The notes under the pieces are model-generated. The model saw only the letters and a program-made list of their open reading frames with translations, had not been told where the DNA came from and made no database searches. A program made the translations under genes and the position numbers. From the NCBI GenBank assembly GCA_027045875.1, contig JALUAG010000074.1:1-64000 (forward strand): a stretch of DNA of 64,000 bases, given 5' to 3'. Each line of letters begins with the position of its first letter. Position 1 is the first letter of the stretch. Source of the stretch: Alphaproteobacteria bacterium (lineage in GTDB: Bacteria > Pseudomonadota > Alphaproteobacteria > Geminicoccales > Geminicoccaceae). Positions 2 to 32,476 of this stretch are shown in pieces.

Positions 2-1168
2 GAGCGCTACGAGGGACGCCGCTACGCCGCCGTCAACGCCTACGGCTTTCAGGGCCTGCGCGAGACCGACGATCAGGGAACGATCCCCTTCGCCCTGCCG
101 CTCGCCGAGTATCACCGGACGAGCGGCCCCCTGGTCTGGGGGTCCTACTGGACCGTGGATGCCGGTGCGCTGGCCCTCACCCGCACCGAAGGCCTCGACA
201 CCCAGCGACTTACCGCCGAACTCGGCTGGGAGCTGCCCTACCTGGGCCCCATCGGCGATCTGTGGCGGCTGCGGCTCGCGGTGCGCGGCGACCTCTACCG
301 CACCGACGGCGATCCCCGGGACTACGGCGGCGGTGGCGACCGGGTGACCGGGCGCATCCTGCCGCGGGCCTATCTCGGCTGGAGCCTGCCGCTGGTGGGC
401 CGGAGCGGCGCCTGGCAGCAGCTCGTGGAGCCGGTGGCGGCGTTGATGATCGATCGCAGCGACGGCAACGATTCCGACATTCCCAACGAGGACAGCCAGT
501 CCTTCGAGTTCGACGAGACCAACCTCTTCGAGCCCAGCCGTTTCACCGGCATCGACCTGGTGGAGGAAGGCGTGCGGTTGGCTTACGGCGTGCGGGCGGC
601 GGCGATCGGTCCGGCGGCCTTCCGGGTGAGCGGGGTACTGGGACAGATCGTCGATCTCGCCGGTGGCGACGAGACCCCCGACAACAGCGGCCTCGAGGGC
701 CGCTTCTCGGATTTCGTCGGTCGCCTCGATCTGCGCCCCGGCCCCTATCTCGATCTCAGCTACCGGTTCCGCTTCGCCGCCGATGATCTGGTGTTCCGCC
801 GCAACGACGTGATCGCCTCCTTCGGCCCGCCCCGGCTGCGCTTCCGCATTTCCTATCTCGAGCTCTCCGACGAGCCGCTGCCCGACATCGACCGCAACCG
901 CAAGGAAGTGGTGGCGGCGGTGCGCATCGGCCTCACCGACGAGCTCAGCGTCGGCGCCCAGACCCGCCGCGATCTCACCGAGAACGAGACCGTCGCCACC
1001 AGCGGCGCGCTCGTTTACCGCAACCCCTGCTTCGTCTTGACGGCGGGGATCGAACGCCGATTTACCACCAAGGGTGAGCTCGACGACGAAACCACCTTCA
1101 CCCTGCGCATCGGATTCGCCGGTCTCGGCGACATCGGCACCTCGACCTCGCTCGAGGAGGTGCGGTAA
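2..1168 (+). CDS. lptD: LPS-assembly protein LptD, C-terminal part (5' truncated)
   Basis: The frame is open from base 2, so the gene starts upstream of the window; about 388 residues of the C-terminal beta-barrel half are present. LptD is the outer-membrane translocon that, plugged by the lipoprotein LptE, inserts lipopolysaccharide into the outer leaflet. The sequence has alternating polar and aromatic strands typical of a barrel, asymmetric long loops rich in Asp/Gly/Asn, and a late NPC segment where the family carries its C-terminal cysteine(s); I see only one cysteine there. surA follows after about 33 bases on the same strand, the usual alphaproteobacterial lptD-surA order, so it is probably co-transcribed. 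The assignment depends on this order plus the barrel-like composition; the N-terminal jellyroll lies outside the window. Confidence 0.85.
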   Translation, partial: ERYEGRRYAAVNAYGFQGLRETDDQGTIPFALPLAEYHRTSGPLVWGSYWTVDAGALALTRTEGLDTQRLTAELGWELPYLGPIGDLWRLRLAVRGDLYRTDGDPRDYGGGGDRVTGRILPRAYLGWSLPLVGRSGAWQQLVEPVAALMIDRSDGNDSDIPNEDSQSFEFDETNLFEPSRFTGIDLVEEGVRLAYGVRAAAIGPAAFRVSGVLGQIVDLAGGDETPDNSGLEGRFSDFVGRLDLRPGPYLDLSYRFRFAADDLVFRRNDVIASFGPPRLRFRISYLELSDEPLPDIDRNRKEVVAAVRIGLTDELSVGAQTRRDLTENETVATSGALVYRNPCFVLTAGIERRFTTKGELDDETTFTLRIGFAGLGDIGTSTSLEEVR

Positions 1169-25065: not shown

Positions 25066-25116
25066 GCTTCGCCGGACGGCTTGCCCTCGCTCCGGCCACG
25101 CGATAGACCCGGGCCC

Positions 25117-25920
25117 ATGAGTTCCGACCCCGTCACGCCCCTCGTCGGCGTCACCTGCTGCCGCCGACCGGCTGAGTTCGGCACCGTTCACCAGGTGGGC
25201 GACAAATACGTGGATTCGGTGGTGCTCGGTGCCGAGGCCGTGCCGGTCCTGATCCCGGCCCTCGGCGAGGCGCTGGCGCTCGATCCCCTGCTCGAGCGTC
25301 TCGACGGCGTGCTCGTCACCGGCAGCCCGTCCAACGTCGAGCCGCATCACTACGGCGGGCCGCCGCCGCGCGAGGGCAATCTCGCCGATCCGGCGCGCGA
25401 TGCCACCACCCTGCCGCTCATCCGCCGCGCCCTCGAGCTGGGCGTGCCGCTGTTCGCCATCTGCCGGGGCATCCAGGAGCTCAACGTCGCCCTCGGCGGC
25501 ACCCTGCACCAGCACGTTCACGAGCTTCCCGGCCGCCGCGACCATCGTTCCGACAAGAGCAGGCCGCATCCCGAGCGCTACGAGCCGGTGCACGAGATCC
25601 ACCTCACGCCCGGCGGCTATCTGCAGGAGCTGTTCGACGGCGCCGCGACCATTCCGGTGAATTCGCTGCACGCCCAGGGCATCGACCGGCTGGCCGAGGG
25701 TCTGGTCGTGGAGGCGGTGGCCGAGGACGGCACCATCGAGGCGGTACGGGTGCGCGATGCCCGGGCCTTCGCGTTGGGCGTGCAGTGGCATCCCGAATGG
25801 CGGGTGCTGGACAATCCCTGGTCGCGCCGGCTCTACGCCGCCTTCGGCGCGGCCGCGCGCGAGCGCGCAGCAGCGAGGTCGAGGCATGGAAGCGCTGCAC
25901 CGCTTCGAACGCTGGCTTGA
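25117..25920 (+). CDS. puuD: Gamma-glutamyl-amine hydrolase (PuuD-like class I glutamine amidotransferase)
   Basis: A 267-residue peptidase C26 family protein. The nucleophile is Cys116 in FAICRGIQELN, and the catalytic His225/Glu227 lie in QWHPEW; VTGSPSNVEPHHYG fits the gamma-glutamyl-GABA hydrolase branch. It would release glutamate from a gamma-glutamylated amine in the route begun by the glutamine-synthetase-like enzyme encoded next, whose start lies inside its 3' end (35-base overlap). ATG 25117 is preferred to an upstream GTG-type extension of 12 residues. Confidence 0.87.
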   Translation: MSSDPVTPLVGVTCCRRPAEFGTVHQVGDKYVDSVVLGAEAVPVLIPALGEALALDPLLERLDGVLVTGSPSNVEPHHYGGPPPREGNLADPARDATTLPLIRRALELGVPLFAICRGIQELNVALGGTLHQHVHELPGRRDHRSDKSRPHPERYEPVHEIHLTPGGYLQELFDGAATIPVNSLHAQGIDRLAEGLVVEAVAEDGTIEAVRVRDARAFALGVQWHPEWRVLDNPWSRRLYAAFGAAARERAAARSRHGSAAPLRTLA

Positions 25921-27232
25921 GGAACGCCGGATCACCGAGGTCGAGTGCATCATCGCCGACATCAACGGCGTGGCGCGCGGCAAGATCCTTCCCGGCTACA
26001 AGTTCCTGACCTCGGTGCGGGACGACACGCTGCGGCTGCCCGAGAGCATCTTCGTGCAGACCATCACCGGCGAGGATCCCGAGGAGGGGATCATCGATCC
26101 CGTCGACCGCGACGTGCGCCTGCGCCCCGATCCCGGCTCGATCCGCCTCGTGCCCTGGTACGAGGAGCCGACGGCGCAGGTGATCGCCGACAGCCACCAT
26201 CACGACGGCAGTCCGGTGACCATCTCGGTACGGCACGTGCTGCGCCGGGTGCTCGCCCTCTACACGGATCGGGGTTGGCGGCCGGTGGTGGCGCCCGAGC
26301 TCGAATTCTTCCTCACCAAGGTCAACACCGATCCCGACTATCCGCTGGAGCCCCCGATCGGCCGCTCGCGGCGGCCGGAGACCGCGCGCCAGAGCTTCGG
26401 CATCGATGCCGTCAACGAGTTCGATCCGGTGTTCGAGGACGTCTACGACTGGTGCGAGGCGCAGAACATCGACATCGACACCCTCAACCACGAGGCCGGC
26501 GCGGCCCAGATGGAGATCAACTTCAACCACGGCGATCCGCTGGAACTCGCCGACCAGGCCTTCCTGTTCAAGCGCACGGTGCGCCAGGCCGCGCTCAAGC
26601 ACGGCATCTACGCCACCTTCATGGCCAAGCCCATCGCCACCGAGCCGGGCAGCGCCATGCACATCCACGTGAGCCTCTACGAGGGCGAGCGCAATCTCTT
26701 CGCCGGCGAGGGCGAGGAGCCCTTCTCGCCCACCTTCCTGCATTTCATCGGCGGCCTGCAGAAGTACCTGCCGGCGGCGATGCTGCTGTTCGCCCCCAAC
26801 GTCAATTCCTACCGCCGCCTGCGCCGCTACTCGACCGCCCCCATCAACGTCCACTGGGGGGTCGAAAACCGCACGGTGGGGCTCCGGGTGCCGGATTCCA
26901 AACCCTCCGCACGGCGGGTCGAGAACCGCGTGGCGGGCGCCGACGCCAACCCCTATCTGGCGATCGCCGCCACCCTCGCCTGCGGCTGGCTCGGGATCGA
27001 GCAGGAGCTGGAGCCCAGCGATCCCATCCGCGGCAGCGCCTACCGCCTCGCCCAGACCCTGCCCCAGCAGATGCCGGAAGCGATGCGCAAGCTCGCCACC
27101 TGCCCGCCCCTCAAGGAAGTGCTGGGCGAGGATTTCGTGGCCGTGCTATTGGCGGTGAAGCAGACCGAACACGACGCCTACCAGCGGGTCATCAGCTCCT
27201 GGGAGCGCGAGCATCTGCTGCTCAACGTCTGA
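25886..27232 (+). CDS. puuA: Gamma-glutamylpolyamine synthetase (PuuA-like glutamine synthetase)
   Basis: A 448-residue type I glutamine-synthetase homologue. The N-terminal barrel strand (VECIIADINGVARGKILPG) and the catalytic domain motifs PELEFFL, GAAQMEINF, AMHIHVSL, NVNSYRRL and NRTVGLRVP are present. The divergent N-terminus, the NINVHWGVENR context and pairing with puuD and an aminotransferase mark it as the amine-glutamylating type (putrescine or other amine plus glutamate plus ATP) and not GlnA. No adenylylation-site tyrosine region typical of GlnA is apparent. It overlaps puuD by 35 bases and is 30 bases before the aminotransferase gene. Confidence 0.88.
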   Translation: MEALHRFERWLEERRITEVECIIADINGVARGKILPGYKFLTSVRDDTLRLPESIFVQTITGEDPEEGIIDPVDRDVRLRPDPGSIRLVPWYEEPTAQVIADSHHHDGSPVTISVRHVLRRVLALYTDRGWRPVVAPELEFFLTKVNTDPDYPLEPPIGRSRRPETARQSFGIDAVNEFDPVFEDVYDWCEAQNIDIDTLNHEAGAAQMEINFNHGDPLELADQAFLFKRTVRQAALKHGIYATFMAKPIATEPGSAMHIHVSLYEGERNLFAGEGEEPFSPTFLHFIGGLQKYLPAAMLLFAPNVNSYRRLRRYSTAPINVHWGVENRTVGLRVPDSKPSARRVENRVAGADANPYLAIAATLACGWLGIEQELEPSDPIRGSAYRLAQTLPQQMPEAMRKLATCPPLKEVLGEDFVAVLLAVKQTEHDAYQRVISSWEREHLLLNV

Positions 27233-27262
27233 GGCGTCGGGCGATCCGGAAAGAGGGGCTTG

Positions 27263-28639
27263 ATGGGACGTCACGAGCCTGTCGATGCGCGCCGACTGCG
27301 CGAACTCGACATCCGTCATCACCTCCACCCCTTCACCACCTTCGCCGAACTGGCGAAGACGGGAAGCCGCATCATCACGCGCGCCGAGGGGTGTCATCTC
27401 TGGGATGCCGAGGGCAACCGCATCCTCGACGGCATGGCCGGCCTGTGGTGCGTCAACGTCGGCTACGGCCGCACGCGCCTCGCCGAGGTGGCCCGCGAGC
27501 AGATGGAGGAGCTGCCCTACTACAACACCTTCTTCCAGACGGCCACGCCGCCCGCCATCGAGCTCGCCGCCGAGCTCGCCGCCCTCCTGCCCGAGGGCAT
27601 CGACCGCATCTTCTACGCGAGCTCGGGCTCGGAGGCCAACGACACCATCGTCAAGACCATCTGGTACTACTGGAACCTGATGGGCCGGCCGGAGAAGAAG
27701 ATCATCGTCTCCCGCACCCTCGCCTATCACGGGGTGGGCCTGGGCTCCGGCAGCCTCACCGGCATGCCCTTCATGCACGAGCCCTTCGATCTGCCGCTGG
27801 CGCGCTTCGTCCACATCGGCAATCCCTACTGGTTCGCCGAGGGCGGCGATCTCGATCCCGAGGCATTCGGCCGCGTCGCCGCCCGCTGGCTGGAGGAGAA
27901 GATCCTAGAGATCGGCCCCGAGAAGGTGGCGGCCTTCGTCGGCGAGCCCGTGCAGGGCGCCGGCGGCGTCATCGTGCCGCCCCCGACCTACTGGCCGGAG
28001 ATCCAGCGCATATGCCGCGAATACGACATCCTGCTGGTGGCCGACGAGGTGATCTGCGGCTTCGGCCGCACGGGCCGGACCTGGGGTTCGGAGACCTTCG
28101 GCATTGCGCCCGACATGGTGGCCATGGCCAAGGGGCTGTCCTCGGGCTACCAGCCCATCGCCGCCGTCGGCATCGGCCGCCGGGTGGGCGACGTGATCTT
28201 CGATTCGCCCAGGGAATACGCCCACGGCGTCACCTACGCCGGCCACCCGGTGGCCTGCCGGGTGGCCCTCGAGAACCTCCGCATCATGCGCGAGGAGGGG
28301 CTGTTCGAACGGGCGGGCGGGCCGGTCGGCCGCTATTTCGCCGAACGCCTCGCCGAGTTCCGGGATCATCCGCTCATCGGCGAGGTGCGCACCTGCGGCT
28401 TCCTCGCCGCCATGGAGATCGTCGAGGACAAGGAGGCCCGCCGCCCCTGGCCTCCCGAGCGCAAGGTGGGTCTCGCCTGCCGCGAGATCAGCATCGCCAA
28501 CGGGCTCGTCATGCGGGCCATCCGTGACGCCATGGTGCTGGCCCCGCCGCTCGTCATCACCGAGGCCGAGATCGACGAGATGGTGGACAAGGCCCGCCGC
28601 AGCTTCGACGCACTCGCCCGCCGCCTCGGGCGGATGTGA
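27263..28639 (+). CDS. Class III aminotransferase (putrescine/omega-amino acid:pyruvate type)
   Basis: A 458-residue PLP enzyme with the class III signatures SSGSEANDT (120-128), LVADEVICGFGRTG (258-271) and the cofactor lysine Lys290 in AMAKGLSSGYQP. It resembles putrescine-pyruvate and omega-amino acid-pyruvate transaminases (SpuC-like). Next to puuD and puuA it would remove the terminal amino group from a polyamine or its glutamylated derivative; GABA or beta-alanine are alternative donors. ATG 27263 is preceded by AAGAGGGG; a TTG one codon earlier is less likely. The full pathway would also need an oxidase or dehydrogenase, not seen in this window. Confidence 0.86.
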   Translation: MGRHEPVDARRLRELDIRHHLHPFTTFAELAKTGSRIITRAEGCHLWDAEGNRILDGMAGLWCVNVGYGRTRLAEVAREQMEELPYYNTFFQTATPPAIELAAELAALLPEGIDRIFYASSGSEANDTIVKTIWYYWNLMGRPEKKIIVSRTLAYHGVGLGSGSLTGMPFMHEPFDLPLARFVHIGNPYWFAEGGDLDPEAFGRVAARWLEEKILEIGPEKVAAFVGEPVQGAGGVIVPPPTYWPEIQRICREYDILLVADEVICGFGRTGRTWGSETFGIAPDMVAMAKGLSSGYQPIAAVGIGRRVGDVIFDSPREYAHGVTYAGHPVACRVALENLRIMREEGLFERAGGPVGRYFAERLAEFRDHPLIGEVRTCGFLAAMEIVEDKEARRPWPPERKVGLACREISIANGLVMRAIRDAMVLAPPLVITEAEIDEMVDKARRSFDALARRLGRM

Positions 28640-28660
28640 GCGGGGCGGGACGGGCCGCCT

Positions 28661-29191
28661 TCACGCGTTCGGAAGCTCGATCCGGAGGCCCGCTCCCCAC
28701 GCGATTCCTGCCGCCTCGCACGCCGCTTTCAGAATCTGCTTTTTCTGGCGGTTGGAGATGACGGTATTGAGGAACCAGCCGGGTGCCACCTCGACGACCC
28801 GGTCGCGAAGATCCGGCCTTGCCGGATGTACCGCCTCCGGGCTCCGGGCGACGTGATTGACCGACCGTCCGGCGGTCAGGCTGCACAGACGCTCGAAGAA
28901 GGACGGATCGCGCCGACCGAGCTCCCGGAGGATCTGCGTTACCGCCTCGATGGCGGAGCCCACGTGCTCCGTGCGTCCAAGCAGCGTATAGGCGATACCG
29001 CGCGAGCCTGACGAAGGCGCCGGATTGCGCTGCTGCCGCGGAACAGTCGTGCCCGTGGTGCCCGACCGTTGCGAGAGCAAAGCCGGCGGCACGGCGATCG
29101 TTACAGTCCGTGTTCCGACCAGCGGTTTCTTCGCGAGCGCAGCGAGGAGAGCAGCCTCGGAAACGGCCACCATTTGCAGGACATGGTTCAT
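28661..29191 (-). CDS. Unknown protein with SeqA-like C-terminal region
   Basis: A 176-residue protein, last gene of a three-gene minus-strand operon. Residues 1-60 are low-complexity and unassigned. Residues 107-172 (GRSVNHVARSPEAV, then PDLRDRVVEV, APGWFLNTVISNRQKKQIL) follow the order of conserved positions in the C-terminal DNA-binding domain of SeqA: GR, aromatic/Ala, Pro, Trp with xTN, Lys-x-x-x-Leu, Gly. SeqA binds hemimethylated GATC. The similarity is a pattern match by eye and modest. The ribosome binding site is near-perfect (AGGAGGTGA, 3 bases before ATG). The gene is 3 bases from its upstream neighbour and convergent with the aminotransferase gene. Base composition is A+T-richer than flanking genes. 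Confidence 0.6.
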   Translation of the reverse strand: MNHVLQMVAVSEAALLAALAKKPLVGTRTVTIAVPPALLSQRSGTTGTTVPRQQRNPAPSSGSRGIAYTLLGRTEHVGSAIEAVTQILRELGRRDPSFFERLCSLTAGRSVNHVARSPEAVHPARPDLRDRVVEVAPGWFLNTVISNRQKKQILKAACEAAGIAWGAGLRIELPNA

Positions 29192-29194
29192 GGT

Positions 29195-29500
29195 TCACCT
29201 CCTCTTTCTAAGACGATGCCGGGGCGCTTTCGGAAGTCTCTTCCCCTTCCGTCGGTCCGGTCGGTAGATGGTGACCAGACGGCCGTTTTGGATGACCAGA
29301 AAAGTGCCCGCGAGGCGCTCGATGCGATCGGCGAGCCTCCGGAATCGGTAGGCGAGTTCGCGCGCTCGCCTGTGTGTCACGAACAGCCCTTCGTGCGTCT
29401 CCTCTCCGATCTCCAGAAGCCATTCGAGATCGTACTCGGCATAACCCCGTTGCCGCATGCGCGCCTCGGCGTGACGTGTCACCGTCAGGCCGTTTGTCAT
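29195..29500 (-). CDS. DUF4258-domain protein
   Basis: A 101-residue basic protein. The opening RHAEARMRQRGYAEYDLEWLL and the closing FLVIQNGRLVTIYRP match the DUF4258 pattern (HxxxRMxQRGI..., a middle Gly-Glu, and a final VTVYR strand), a small RelE/BrnT-like fold often found beside regulators in accessory DNA. The C-terminal tail is strongly basic (RRKGKRLPKAPRHRLRKRR). It starts at ATG 29500, overlapping the stop of the XRE gene (ATGA), so the two are translationally coupled, the arrangement of a toxin-antitoxin pair with the regulator first. Toxicity is not shown by sequence; an RNA- or DNA-binding accessory role is equally possible. Confidence 0.68.
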   Translation of the reverse strand: MTNGLTVTRHAEARMRQRGYAEYDLEWLLEIGEETHEGLFVTHRRARELAYRFRRLADRIERLAGTFLVIQNGRLVTIYRPDRRKGKRLPKAPRHRLRKRR

Positions 29501-30429
29501 TCCTCGCTTCCCTCGGCGCAGGCGGAGGATCCCGGATCTTCCTCGGGAAGATCCAGCAGCTTGAGAAACCGCCGTCGGTATTCTTCGAGGCGACGGTGAA
29601 GCTCGGCAACGCGTTCTTCGGTTTTCTCGTCGCCGAGCGACTGACGTAGGCCCGCTACGGAAAAAAAGCCCTGTAAGATGGCGTCCGCGAGGTCTTTGTC
29701 TCCGGCAGCGAGCCTCAACGCCTGCTCGGGGTTGATCAGGTACATGACCCGATCCTTTCCCGCTTCCACAATACTGCACCCCGACAAGCCCGACGCCAGG
29801 CGCTCAATCTCCGCCTGGAAAGGATTGGGAGCGTCAGGATAGTAGGTCTCCGGCGCATACTTTTCGGCGAAGATATCCTCGGCTTCTATCGATTCTTCCT
29901 CGACGCAATACGCGTCCTCCACGAAACTTCCTTGTATGCTGGGCTTGGGCAAATGAGCCGCTTCCGTTTCGCCGAGTTTTTCGAGTTCTTCGAGAGCCGA
30001 ATAGATCTTTGCGAGCGCTTCCCGCCGGTGCCGCAGGCTGCGCTGCGCGACGATGTGAAACAGAAGCGCTGCCAATTCCACCTGCGTTTTCGGCGCTACA
30101 CCATAGCGAAGTTCGTTGAGAATGAGAGCGTTGTATGCTGCAGCGCCGATCTTCACGTTTAGGCGAACACTCTCACCGCCATCGTGGGGATCCCGTTCCG
30201 CATCCTCCGGCATCGGTTCTTCTCCGGTGAGTACGCCGGGCTCCACGTCAAGCACGCTTGCGAGTCGATCCACCCTCAAGGCTCGGGCGTTGACCGAGAG
30301 CTCGCCTCTGAGAAGGCGGCGAACGGTCCGCTCGCTCCCACCCAGTTTCTCGGCCAGCTTCCTCGCGCTGCGAATGCCCTTCCGCTCCATCAGCGTGCGA
30401 ACGCGAGACGGGTCTATGCGCGCTTCCAT
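29497..30429 (-). CDS. XRE-family helix-turn-helix regulator with large C-terminal region
   Basis: A 310-residue protein. The N-terminal HTH (about 9-58) contains GIRSARKLAEKLGGSERTVRRLLRGE, a standard Xre recognition unit. The remaining 250 residues are unlike a simple phage repressor: a helical segment at 90-150 (VRLNVKIGAAAYNALILNEL) that may dimerise, an acidic stretch at 170-200, and a charged helical end (RVAELHRRLEEYRRRFLKLLDL). It is the first gene of the operon, behind a sigma-70 promoter whose -10 begins about 36 bases before the ATG, so autoregulation is likely. Codon use and base composition are less GC-biased than in neighbours, suggesting horizontal acquisition. Confidence 0.78.
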   Translation of the reverse strand: MEARIDPSRVRTLMERKGIRSARKLAEKLGGSERTVRRLLRGELSVNARALRVDRLASVLDVEPGVLTGEEPMPEDAERDPHDGGESVRLNVKIGAAAYNALILNELRYGVAPKTQVELAALLFHIVAQRSLRHRREALAKIYSALEELEKLGETEAAHLPKPSIQGSFVEDAYCVEEESIEAEDIFAEKYAPETYYPDAPNPFQAEIERLASGLSGCSIVEAGKDRVMYLINPEQALRLAAGDKDLADAILQGFFSVAGLRQSLGDEKTEERVAELHRRLEEYRRRFLKLLDLPEEDPGSSACAEGSEE

Positions 30430-30464
30430 GCTGCGGCCCTCCGGTGTCTCTATCGTTGCTGACC

Positions 30465-30493
30465 AACATATGCCCTATTACTGTGCACGTCAA
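30465..30493 (-). promoter_or_regulatory. Sigma-70 promoter of the XRE-DUF4258-SeqA-like operon
   Basis: On the minus strand TTGACG (30493-30488) and TATGTT (30470-30465) are separated by exactly 17 bases; start would be near 30458, leaving a leader of about 29 bases to the XRE ATG. Upstream, 30505-30545 carries several TTTGAC/TTGACC-like words (ATTTTGACCATTTGATC, ACTTTGACG) that could be operator half-sites. The remainder of the 30430-30706 gap shows nothing else I can name. Confidence 0.6.
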
Positions 30494-30706
30494 TGAGGCA
30501 AACCGGACATTTTGACCATTTGATCAGCCTCCATCTCGGCCACTTTGACGCACCATGGCCGACTTTTCCCTCACGCGCTGCACTTTCACGGCCCTTTCCG
30601 GCTCGCTCGTGGCCGCATTGCGGACACATCGGGAGCGGCCGCAACATGGACACCGCTGACGCCTTCCGGCAGACCGGTGATGCCAGCCGCCCGGGAGAGC
30701 TGCCGC

Positions 30707-32476
30707 TTGACCACCGACCAGATCCTGCTGTTCGCCATCCTGGGGGCGGTGTTCGCCCTTTTGGTGTGGGGACGCTGGCGCTACGATCTGGTGGCCTTCG
30801 CGGCGCTCATTGCGGCCGTGCTGACAGGCGTCGTGCCCACCGATCGCGCCTTTTCCGGCTTCGGCCATCCCGCCACCGTGGTGGTGGCGCTGGTGCTGGT
30901 GGTGAGCCGCGGCCTCGTCCAGTCCGGGGTGGTCGAGCTCATTGCCCGCCACCTCCTCGATCCCGAACGGCCGCCGGGGCGCCACATCGCCATCATGGCC
31001 GGCCTCGCCGCCATTCTATCGGCGGTGATGAACAACGTGGCGGCCCTCGCCCTCCTGATGCCCCTCGATCTCGAGGCCGCACGCCGCGCCGGCCGGCCTC
31101 CCGGCACCACCCTGATGCCGCTCGCCTTCGCCTCCATCCTGGGCGGCATGATCACCCTCATCGGCACGCCCCCCAACATCGTCGTCGCGAGCTACCGCGA
31201 GACCGCCCTCGGCGCCCCCTTCGGCATGTTCGCCTTCACCCCGGTGGGGCTCGCCGTGACGGTGGTCGGCCTCGCCTTCGTGGCGCTTCTGGGCTGGCGT
31301 CTGCTGCCCACCTCCGGGCGCGGGCAGGCCGCGGCCGAGGGCGGCTTCGAGATCGGCGACTATGTGGCCGAACTCCGGCTCAAGGAGGATTCGCCGGCCG
31401 TCGGCCGCACGCTCGCCGAACTCGGCGAGGCCTTCGAGGAGGCGGATGCCGAGCCATTGGGCGTGCTGCGGCGCGGGCGGCACCTGTCGTCACGGATGCG
31501 GCTGGAGGCCGGCGACCTGCTGCTTCTGCAGGCCGGCCCCGAGGCGCTGGAACGGCTGATCGGCACCCTCGGCCTCGAATATGCGGGCACCGGCGAGAAG
31601 GAGAAGCTGGCCGGGATGGAGGATCTCACGCTGGTCGAGGCGGTGGTGCCGGAGGGGGCGCGGATCGTCGGCCGCACCGCCCGCAGCCTGCGCCTCCTGA
31701 CCCGTCACGGAGTGGCCCTCGTGGGCGTGTCCCGCCAGGGGCGGAGGCTGCGCCAGCATGTGCGCAACCTGCCGATCCGGGCCGGCGACGTGCTGCTCCT
31801 CCTGGGGCCGGAAGAGCGGCTGGCCGAGGTCGCCGGCTGGCTCGGCTGCCTGCCGCTGGCCGACCGCGGCCTCACGGTGATCCGACGCGAGCGCGCGGGC
31901 CTCGCGGTGCTGCTGTTCGGCGGCGCGATCCTGCTGGCCGGGCTCGGTCTCGTCCATCTGCCGGTGGCGCTGGCCGCCACCGCGGTGCTCATGACCCTCT
32001 CGGGCATCCTGCCGCTGCGCAGCGTCTACGAATCCATCGAATGGCCGGTGATCGTGCTGCTGGGCTCGATGATCCCCATCGGCGAGGCGCTGCAGAGCTC
32101 GGGCGGCACCGCCCTTCTCGCCGCCTCGCTCGTGGATCTGACCGCCGGCTGGCCGCCGCTCCTCGTGCTGGCGATCCTGATGATCGTCACCATGACCCTC
32201 TCCGACGTCATGAACAACACGGCCACCGCGGTGATCGCCGCACCGGTGGCGATCGAGGTCGCCGACCGCCTGGGCAGCAGCCCCGATCCGTTCCTGATGG
32301 CCGTCGCGGTGGGTGCCTCCTGCGCCTTCCTCACCCCCATCGGCCACAAGAACAACACCCTGATCATGGGACCGGGCGGCTACCGCTTCGGCGACTACTG
32401 GCGGATGGGGCTGCCGCTCGAGATCCTGGTGCTGGCGACGGCGGTGCCGGCGATCGCCCTCGTCTGGCCCTTCTGA
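30707..32476 (+). CDS. SLC13/DASS-type anion permease with two RCK_C (TrkA-C) domains
   Basis: A 589-residue integral membrane protein in two halves of 5-6 spans, each with the family signature (SAVMNNVAALALLMPL with TLIGTPPNIVVASY; SDVMNNTATAVIAAP with TPIGHKNNTLIMGPGGY). Two TrkA-C regulatory domains lie in the central cytoplasmic loop, about residues 215-290 and 305-385. Such proteins carry sulfate, di-/tricarboxylates or related anions with sodium; the substrate is not decidable here. The TTG at 30707 (MTTDQILLFAILG) follows GGGAGAG and matches the usual family start; ATG 30680 would add nine residues. Its stop abuts the stop of the convergent gene, the two forming the palindrome TGATCA. 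Confidence 0.85.
   Translation: MTTDQILLFAILGAVFALLVWGRWRYDLVAFAALIAAVLTGVVPTDRAFSGFGHPATVVVALVLVVSRGLVQSGVVELIARHLLDPERPPGRHIAIMAGLAAILSAVMNNVAALALLMPLDLEAARRAGRPPGTTLMPLAFASILGGMITLIGTPPNIVVASYRETALGAPFGMFAFTPVGLAVTVVGLAFVALLGWRLLPTSGRGQAAAEGGFEIGDYVAELRLKEDSPAVGRTLAELGEAFEEADAEPLGVLRRGRHLSSRMRLEAGDLLLLQAGPEALERLIGTLGLEYAGTGEKEKLAGMEDLTLVEAVVPEGARIVGRTARSLRLLTRHGVALVGVSRQGRRLRQHVRNLPIRAGDVLLLLGPEERLAEVAGWLGCLPLADRGLTVIRRERAGLAVLLFGGAILLAGLGLVHLPVALAATAVLMTLSGILPLRSVYESIEWPVIVLLGSMIPIGEALQSSGGTALLAASLVDLTAGWPPLLVLAILMIVTMTLSDVMNNTATAVIAAPVAIEVADRLGSSPDPFLMAVAVGASCAFLTPIGHKNNTLIMGPGGYRFGDYWRMGLPLEILVLATAVPAIALVWPF

Follow-up and report, generated by a model that had tools for sequence, protein, structure and literature searches.

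A predicted SeqA-fold protein in a probable toxin–antitoxin-like accessory operon of an alphaproteobacterium, with relatives on restriction-type nucleases

RESULTS

A compact three-gene operon forms an accessory islet

The window analysed here, 64,000 nt of contig JALUAG010000074.1 from a bacterium of the Geminicoccaceae (Alphaproteobacteria; assembly GCA_027045875.1, positions 1 to 64,000), carries a three-gene operon that encodes an XRE-type regulator (P0003), a small basic DUF4258-like protein (P0002) and a protein (P0001) whose C-terminal part is predicted to adopt the DNA-binding fold of SeqA (Table 1). In gammaproteobacterial replication control this fold is the reader of hemimethylated GATC. 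The anatomy of the operon proposed by a first-pass annotation, which had only the letters and the open reading frames (ORFs) at hand, is borne out by the sequence: besides the three ORFs we find an ATGA overlap (29500-29497) that joins the stop codon of the XRE gene to the start of gene 2, a gap of 3 bases (29192-29194) before gene 3, and the ribosome binding site of gene 3, AGGAGGTGA, with an internal TGA (29203-29195) that is the stop codon of gene 2. The promoter proposed there, TTGACG-N17-TATGTT, is in fact the only sigma-70-like site in 28500-30800 (9 of 12 matches). The block is also richer in A+T than its surroundings, as had been stated, with a G+C content of 0.58-0.65 inside and 0.66-0.75 outside.

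The 'acquired' look of the block is strengthened by an empty site in both congeneric genomes (G001 and G002), which lack a segment of ~2.07 kb corresponding to exactly the three genes. Both flanks, an aminotransferase (Aminotran_3) gene and a CitMHS/TrkA-C transporter gene, match there at ~80-90% identity and lie nearly contiguous, at a distance of only 15-32 bp, and P0001 has no match anywhere in the remainder of the two genomes. Thus the block is an accessory islet that was gained or lost as one unit. Searches of plasmids, phages and viral contigs with the SeqA-like domain gave no match, so that carriage of gene 3 by a phage or plasmid is not supported.

Table 1. Position of the operon, its signals and the SeqA-like domain in the window
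Feature	Position	Strand	Description or evidence
Accessory islet, missing in both congeners	28640..30707	no strand	Exactly the three-gene operon; empty-site comparison
Promoter-like TTGACG-N17-TATGTT	30465..30493	minus	1 found, 0.3 expected in shuffles
Gene 1, P0003, 310 aa	29497..30429	minus	XRE/Cro-C1 helix-turn-helix regulator, long C-terminal part
Gene 2, P0002, 101 aa, isoelectric point 11.5	29195..29500	minus	DUF4258-like small basic protein
Ribosome binding site of gene 3, AGGAGGTGA	29195..29203	minus	Overlaps the stop codon of gene 2
Gene 3, P0001, 176 aa, isoelectric point 11.0	28661..29191	minus	Predicted SeqA-C-fold protein
SeqA C-terminal-like domain, P0001 residues 65-172	28676..28999	minus	AlphaFold confidence; top five PDB matches all SeqA
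First DNA-contact loop G-R-S-V, residues 108-111 (SeqA R116-T117-R118)	28859..28870	minus	Profile alignment, conservation
Second DNA-contact loop G-W-F-L-N-T-V-I, residues 138-145 (SeqA W-V-I-T-N150-T-N152)	28757..28780	minus	Profile alignment, conservation

The third protein is a predicted distant homologue of the SeqA C-terminal domain

A SeqA C-terminal pattern at residues 107-172 of P0001 had been proposed from the sequence. Direct searches of Pfam, NCBIfam, PHROG, PADLOC and the PDB with the single sequence yielded sub-threshold matches only, among them Pfam SeqA (PF03925) with 11.7 bits (E 0.28; gathering score 25.5); those to TetR_C_31, MCE and Cgl2664 were taken as chance. The relatives in loci L002 and L003 match Pfam SeqA in the same register as P0001 (E 0.17 and 0.05, respectively), a homologue from the Acetobacteraceae does so with an E of 0.0023, and a nuclease fusion described below (L006) scores 25.5 bits (E 1.5e-5), exactly at the curated cut-off, which no other relative reaches. 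A profile built from six family members retrieved 11 real SeqA proteins from 398 Pseudomonadota genomes (E 4e-4 to 1e-6), all other matches being members of the family itself; the 11 proteins carry the SeqA N-terminus (MKTIEVDE.LYR.IA..T..IGESAS.ILRRLL) and align in the right register. Profile-profile comparison of the P0001 family with these 11 proteins gave a probability of 96% (E 2.7e-9), and among PDB sequences the five best matches of this family's profile were all SeqA.

Structure prediction points the same way. The AlphaFold2 model of P0001, computed with 19 homologues, has a predicted local distance difference test score (pLDDT) of ~94-98 over residues 71-170, and Foldseek matched it in the PDB to five SeqA chains with probabilities of 0.99-1.00 (root mean square deviation 2.2-3.0; 11-14% identity over the structural match), the next hit having 0.07 and no other chain exceeding 0.20. 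The predicted domain resembles the SeqA C-terminal domain (PDB 1lrr, 3fmt, 1iu3, 3sk7) in fold, in the order of secondary-structure elements and in the position of the two loops that contact DNA. It differs from SeqA in lacking N150 and N152, and no SeqA N-terminal oligomerisation domain (SeqA-N) is predicted by Pfam search or AlphaFold model, residues 1-60 being unstructured in the latter (pLDDT ~50-62). P0001 is also not encoded with Dam and belongs to the accessory genes, whereas seqA is a core gene. Taken together, the profiles and the model indicate distant homology of P0001 to the C-terminal domain of SeqA. The fold is settled as far as prediction can settle a fold; the call made from the sequence was right, and it was not trivial.

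The contact loops and the question of methylation

SeqA contacts GATC through R116, T117, R118, N150 and N152 (PMC6225831). P0001 has R, S, V, T and I at the equivalent positions, i.e. R116 is kept and residue 117 is a conservative serine. The columns equivalent to these contacts and to T151 rank among the most conserved ones in the family (permutation p = 0.00025), which makes it very probable that the SeqA-like proteins use the same two loops as SeqA to bind DNA. The family consensus is R-K/S-R in the first loop and T-N-(I/Y/N) in the second, the relatives keeping R118 and an asparagine at position 151. With R-S-V and T-V-I in P0001 itself, reading of GATC or of its methylation cannot be assumed, and the contact residues would rather speak against a simple GATC reader. 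The proposal that gene 3 encodes a reader of the methylation state is therefore not borne out by V118, T150 and I152, nor by the host genome, in which N6_N4_Mtase (the CcrM family) had no match and no true Dam was found, the sole match to the Dam family (MethyltransfD12) being a 43-residue stretch within a DUF1156 protein on another contig. GATC is not enriched in the islet (8.7 per kb versus 9.9 in the window), and its GANTC sites number only five, not enough for an interpretation. The gene of the DUF1156 methylase-like protein (L038; G000 contig 56) adjoins one for a ParA/MinD-like AAA_31 ATPase, possibly a separate defence system.

Relatives of P0001 form the C-terminus of HSDR_N-type nucleases

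To collect relatives of the SeqA-like domain, genome contigs were searched with a profile of three close members. Weak profile matches in G087, G257 and G316, which sit in other long frames, enter none of the counts given here. Eleven distinct genes (L006, L007, L013, L027, L028 and L030-L035; L026 is the same gene as L006) encode fusion proteins of 360-500 residues with an HSDR_N-type N-terminus and a SeqA-like domain at the C-terminus, in two copies in the case of L031. Pfam HSDR_N was matched by the two fusions tested (E 1.3e-9 and 7.8e-7), and a V-D-(F/Y)-A-L ... E-V-K motif of the PD-(D/E)XK type is present in 11 of 11, in L030 as read from the printed sequence. They stem from records, many of them metagenome-assembled genomes (MAGs), of Alphaproteobacteria, Thermodesulfobacteriota, Desulfurellaceae, Chloroflexota, Acidobacteriota, Halobacteroidaceae and Hydrogenedentota. 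Their neighbours include HsdM (L033), a defence pair of PRTase and RT_III-A (reverse transcriptase; L027), an OLD/GajA-like ATPase (L026), a HEPN protein (L028) and an HNH protein (L034); no PADLOC model matched the two fusions tested above chance at E <= 0.001.

The SeqA-like domains of the two closest fusions are 45-47% identical to P0001. In the tree the operon proteins P0001 and its counterpart in L029, a MAG of the Acetobacteraceae, group next to the fusions from Alphaproteobacteria (88/88), and SeqA forms a long branch of its own; several supports in this tree are moderate. Judged from these comparisons, the nearest relatives of P0001 are the C-terminal domains of HSDR_N-type nucleases rather than the SeqA of replication control. 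These C-terminal domains presumably serve target recognition. P0001 itself lacks the PD-(D/E)XK nuclease domain and is encoded with an XRE and a DUF4258 gene instead.

With their one or two SeqA-like domains at the C-terminus, these HSDR_N nucleases are candidate type IV or modification-dependent restriction enzymes. In the type IV winged-helix fusion endonucleases, a methyl-adenine-sensing domain is joined to a nuclease (PMC11037411). The SeqA-like fusions are alike in concept, a DNA-binding domain being placed on a nuclease, and differ from these m6A (N6-methyladenine)-dependent enzymes in using a SeqA fold rather than a winged helix, and HSDR_N rather than HNH or GIY-YIG. In the literature searched, which misses most subscription papers, we found no description of HSDR_N nucleases with SeqA-fold domains or of the operon.

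Further arrangements of the domain were also seen. In L012, L014 and L008 it follows an N-terminus of no assigned family in proteins of ~190-220 aa, and the T-N-N loop of these three (W-x-x-x-T-N-N) comes nearest to the SeqA loop. In two genomes from the host's own family a SeqA-like gene comes after a CI-like XRE gene (L002:521-1932 and L003:1552-2891); the SeqA-like frame of L003 contains an in-frame TAG near the C-terminus. By eye only, the N-termini of the SeqA-like proteins in L029, L002 and L003 look ribbon-helix-helix-like.

The XRE and DUF4258-like genes are the stable core of the operon

P0003 matches Pfam HTH_26 with 22.5 bits (cut-off 22), i.e. a Cro/C1-type helix-turn-helix, as well as transcriptional regulators in PHROG; the segment that follows is ribbon-helix-helix-like by eye only. 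The assignment of gene 2 to DUF4258 (PF14076) stood in part: P0002 remains below the cut-off of 25 (18.9 bits, E 0.0019) and matches in its N-terminal half only, whereas two of its co-operonic homologues pass it (26.1 bits in G064, 29.5 bits in G307). The RelE/BrnT-like fold that had been ascribed to this protein is not adopted here, since the structure search was uninformative. DUF4258 is listed among the type II toxin families, in a gene order that puts the antitoxin first (PMC11980606). The window operon shares this order and the small basic DUF4258-like protein with toxin–antitoxin (TA)-like pairs of this family, and differs from them in the size of the antitoxin-side protein (a 310-aa XRE protein) and in the extra third gene; the toxin role of P0002 is putative.

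We compared ten XRE loci, i.e. the window, L029, four full-length homologues from a class-wide XRE profile search and four plasmids. A small gene lies directly downstream of the XRE gene in all ten, with a strong match to a DUF4258-like profile in seven and a weak one in L081, L083 and L080 (E 2e-6, 3e-4 and 9e-4, respectively, in a small ORF set). Thus the XRE and DUF4258-like genes are the stable core, to which the SeqA-like gene is an optional addition. The expectation that the three genes stay together holds for L029, which has all of them in the identical order with a third protein ~32% identical to that of the window, and fails for the other eight loci. In L040 (about 505-1070, minus strand) and L041 (513-1052, minus strand) the third position is taken by unassigned proteins without Pfam match, and no third gene is evident in the others. 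This position may be a variable slot for recognition or effector proteins.

The defence-like setting suspected by the first-pass annotation is seen at some of these pairs on plasmids, as it is at some fusions. On a Rhodovastum plasmid the pair lies beside SIR2/HerA anti-phage genes, on a Blastomonas plasmid beside a methyltransferase/helicase pair and a VapC toxin, and on Sphingopyxis plasmid NZ_CP009431.1 (101-111 kb; L080, L084) it adjoins genes for a DndA-like cysteine desulfurase, DUF4007 and a PAPS-reductase-family protein. The Sphingopyxis cluster recalls DNA phosphorothioation, a possible reading of these genes.

Flanking the islet in the window, at 25081-28639, genes for glutamine amidotransferase-like and glutamine synthetase family proteins stand in a row with one for a class-III aminotransferase and resemble a polyamine (Puu-type) degradation cluster.

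DISCUSSION

We read the islet, with a probability of about 0.5, as a TA-like accessory operon that has gained a DNA-recognition protein from a family common to restriction-type nucleases. According to this reading P0003, of the XRE type, would bind DNA to regulate its own operon and would probably act as the antitoxin-like partner to P0002, a DUF4258-type small basic protein with a putative toxin role. P0001 would be a stand-alone protein that binds DNA by means of the SeqA C-terminal fold. Its target is most likely a short DNA site, contacted through the two loops of SeqA: either the operator of its own operon, or a site or a modification that incoming DNA carries. Such binding would tune or trigger the XRE/DUF4258 pair as an anti-mobile-element, TA-like module. 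What the analysis does support is a defence-like accessory module that includes a SeqA fold.

Several observations weigh against this interpretation. Two loop residues that hardly vary in the family are exchanged in P0001 (R118 to V and N151 to V), so that it could bind DNA differently or no longer at all. The SeqA-like gene occurs in only two of the ten XRE-DUF4258 loci, and the tree node uniting P0001 with the protein of L029 (90/77) falls short of strong support. No known defence gene adjoining the islet was identified in the window. DUF4258 has no studied member and no known activity (PMC11980606), and the model of P0002 (pLDDT 82, from only six sequences) matched no RelE-type structure and found no confident PDB match.

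Third genes of TA operons often autoregulate their operon. P0001 might likewise be a mere co-repressor, binding the operon promoter together with the XRE protein and so controlling how far the TA pair is expressed, with no sensing of foreign DNA. Two further observations would suit this role: in G016 and G026 a regulator gene of the XRE/CI-like kind, with no DUF4258 gene, directly overlaps that of the SeqA-like relative, and an imperfect small palindrome, GTTG-N5-CAAC, overlaps the -10 region of the operon. However, eight of the ten pairs do without a SeqA-like gene, and the nearest relatives of the domain sit on nucleases, where mere operon regulation is impossible; we regard this explanation as possible but doubtful. 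It is unlikely that gene 3 is a relic, the recognition domain of a broken HSDR_N-SeqA nuclease drifting without function beside the TA pair. Its place beside the nuclease fusions in the tree, the 60 unstructured N-terminal residues of the model and the loss of the two invariant loop residues would fit such an origin; yet the ORF is intact, its ribosome binding site is strong and the genes of the operon are closely spaced, and the gene order shared with L029 at so low an identity of the third protein argues for selection on a stand-alone gene 3.

Still closer to SeqA itself, P0001 could read hemimethylated or methylated adenine and thereby time or silence the replication or transcription of the element. 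The fold and the retained R116 are in favour, as are the relatives that keep R118 and N at 151, three of them (L012, L014 and L008) with N at 152 as well. In P0001, however, N150, N152 and R118 are replaced, an oligomerisation domain of the SeqA type is not predicted, and neither the methyltransferase content of the host nor the GATC density of the islet points to such a role, which we hold to be improbable. A bolder proposal combines sensing with defence: the module would monitor the methylation or replication state, P0001 recognising, in a host without detectable Dam or CcrM, the modification pattern of incoming DNA and releasing the DUF4258 toxin from the XRE protein, and the sister HSDR_N-SeqA fusions would form a new class of modification-dependent restriction enzymes. 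In this full form it is a long shot.

The reading of the islet as a TA-like operon with a DNA-recognition protein concerns a single locus; the larger result is the family itself, i.e. SeqA-fold domains outside SeqA, on restriction-type nucleases. A highly divergent version of the fold is now seen in a stand-alone protein of an accessory operon and at the C-terminus of restriction-type nucleases from several phyla. Since relatives of P0001 form the tail of such nucleases, the SeqA fold seems to be used more widely, probably for defence-like DNA recognition. The 11 nuclease genes are a directly testable set. If the family does recognise modified DNA, restriction or TA-linked defence would gain a new class, one that senses methyl-adenine. 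This would also point to a recruitment of SeqA from such a pool, or to one in the opposite direction.
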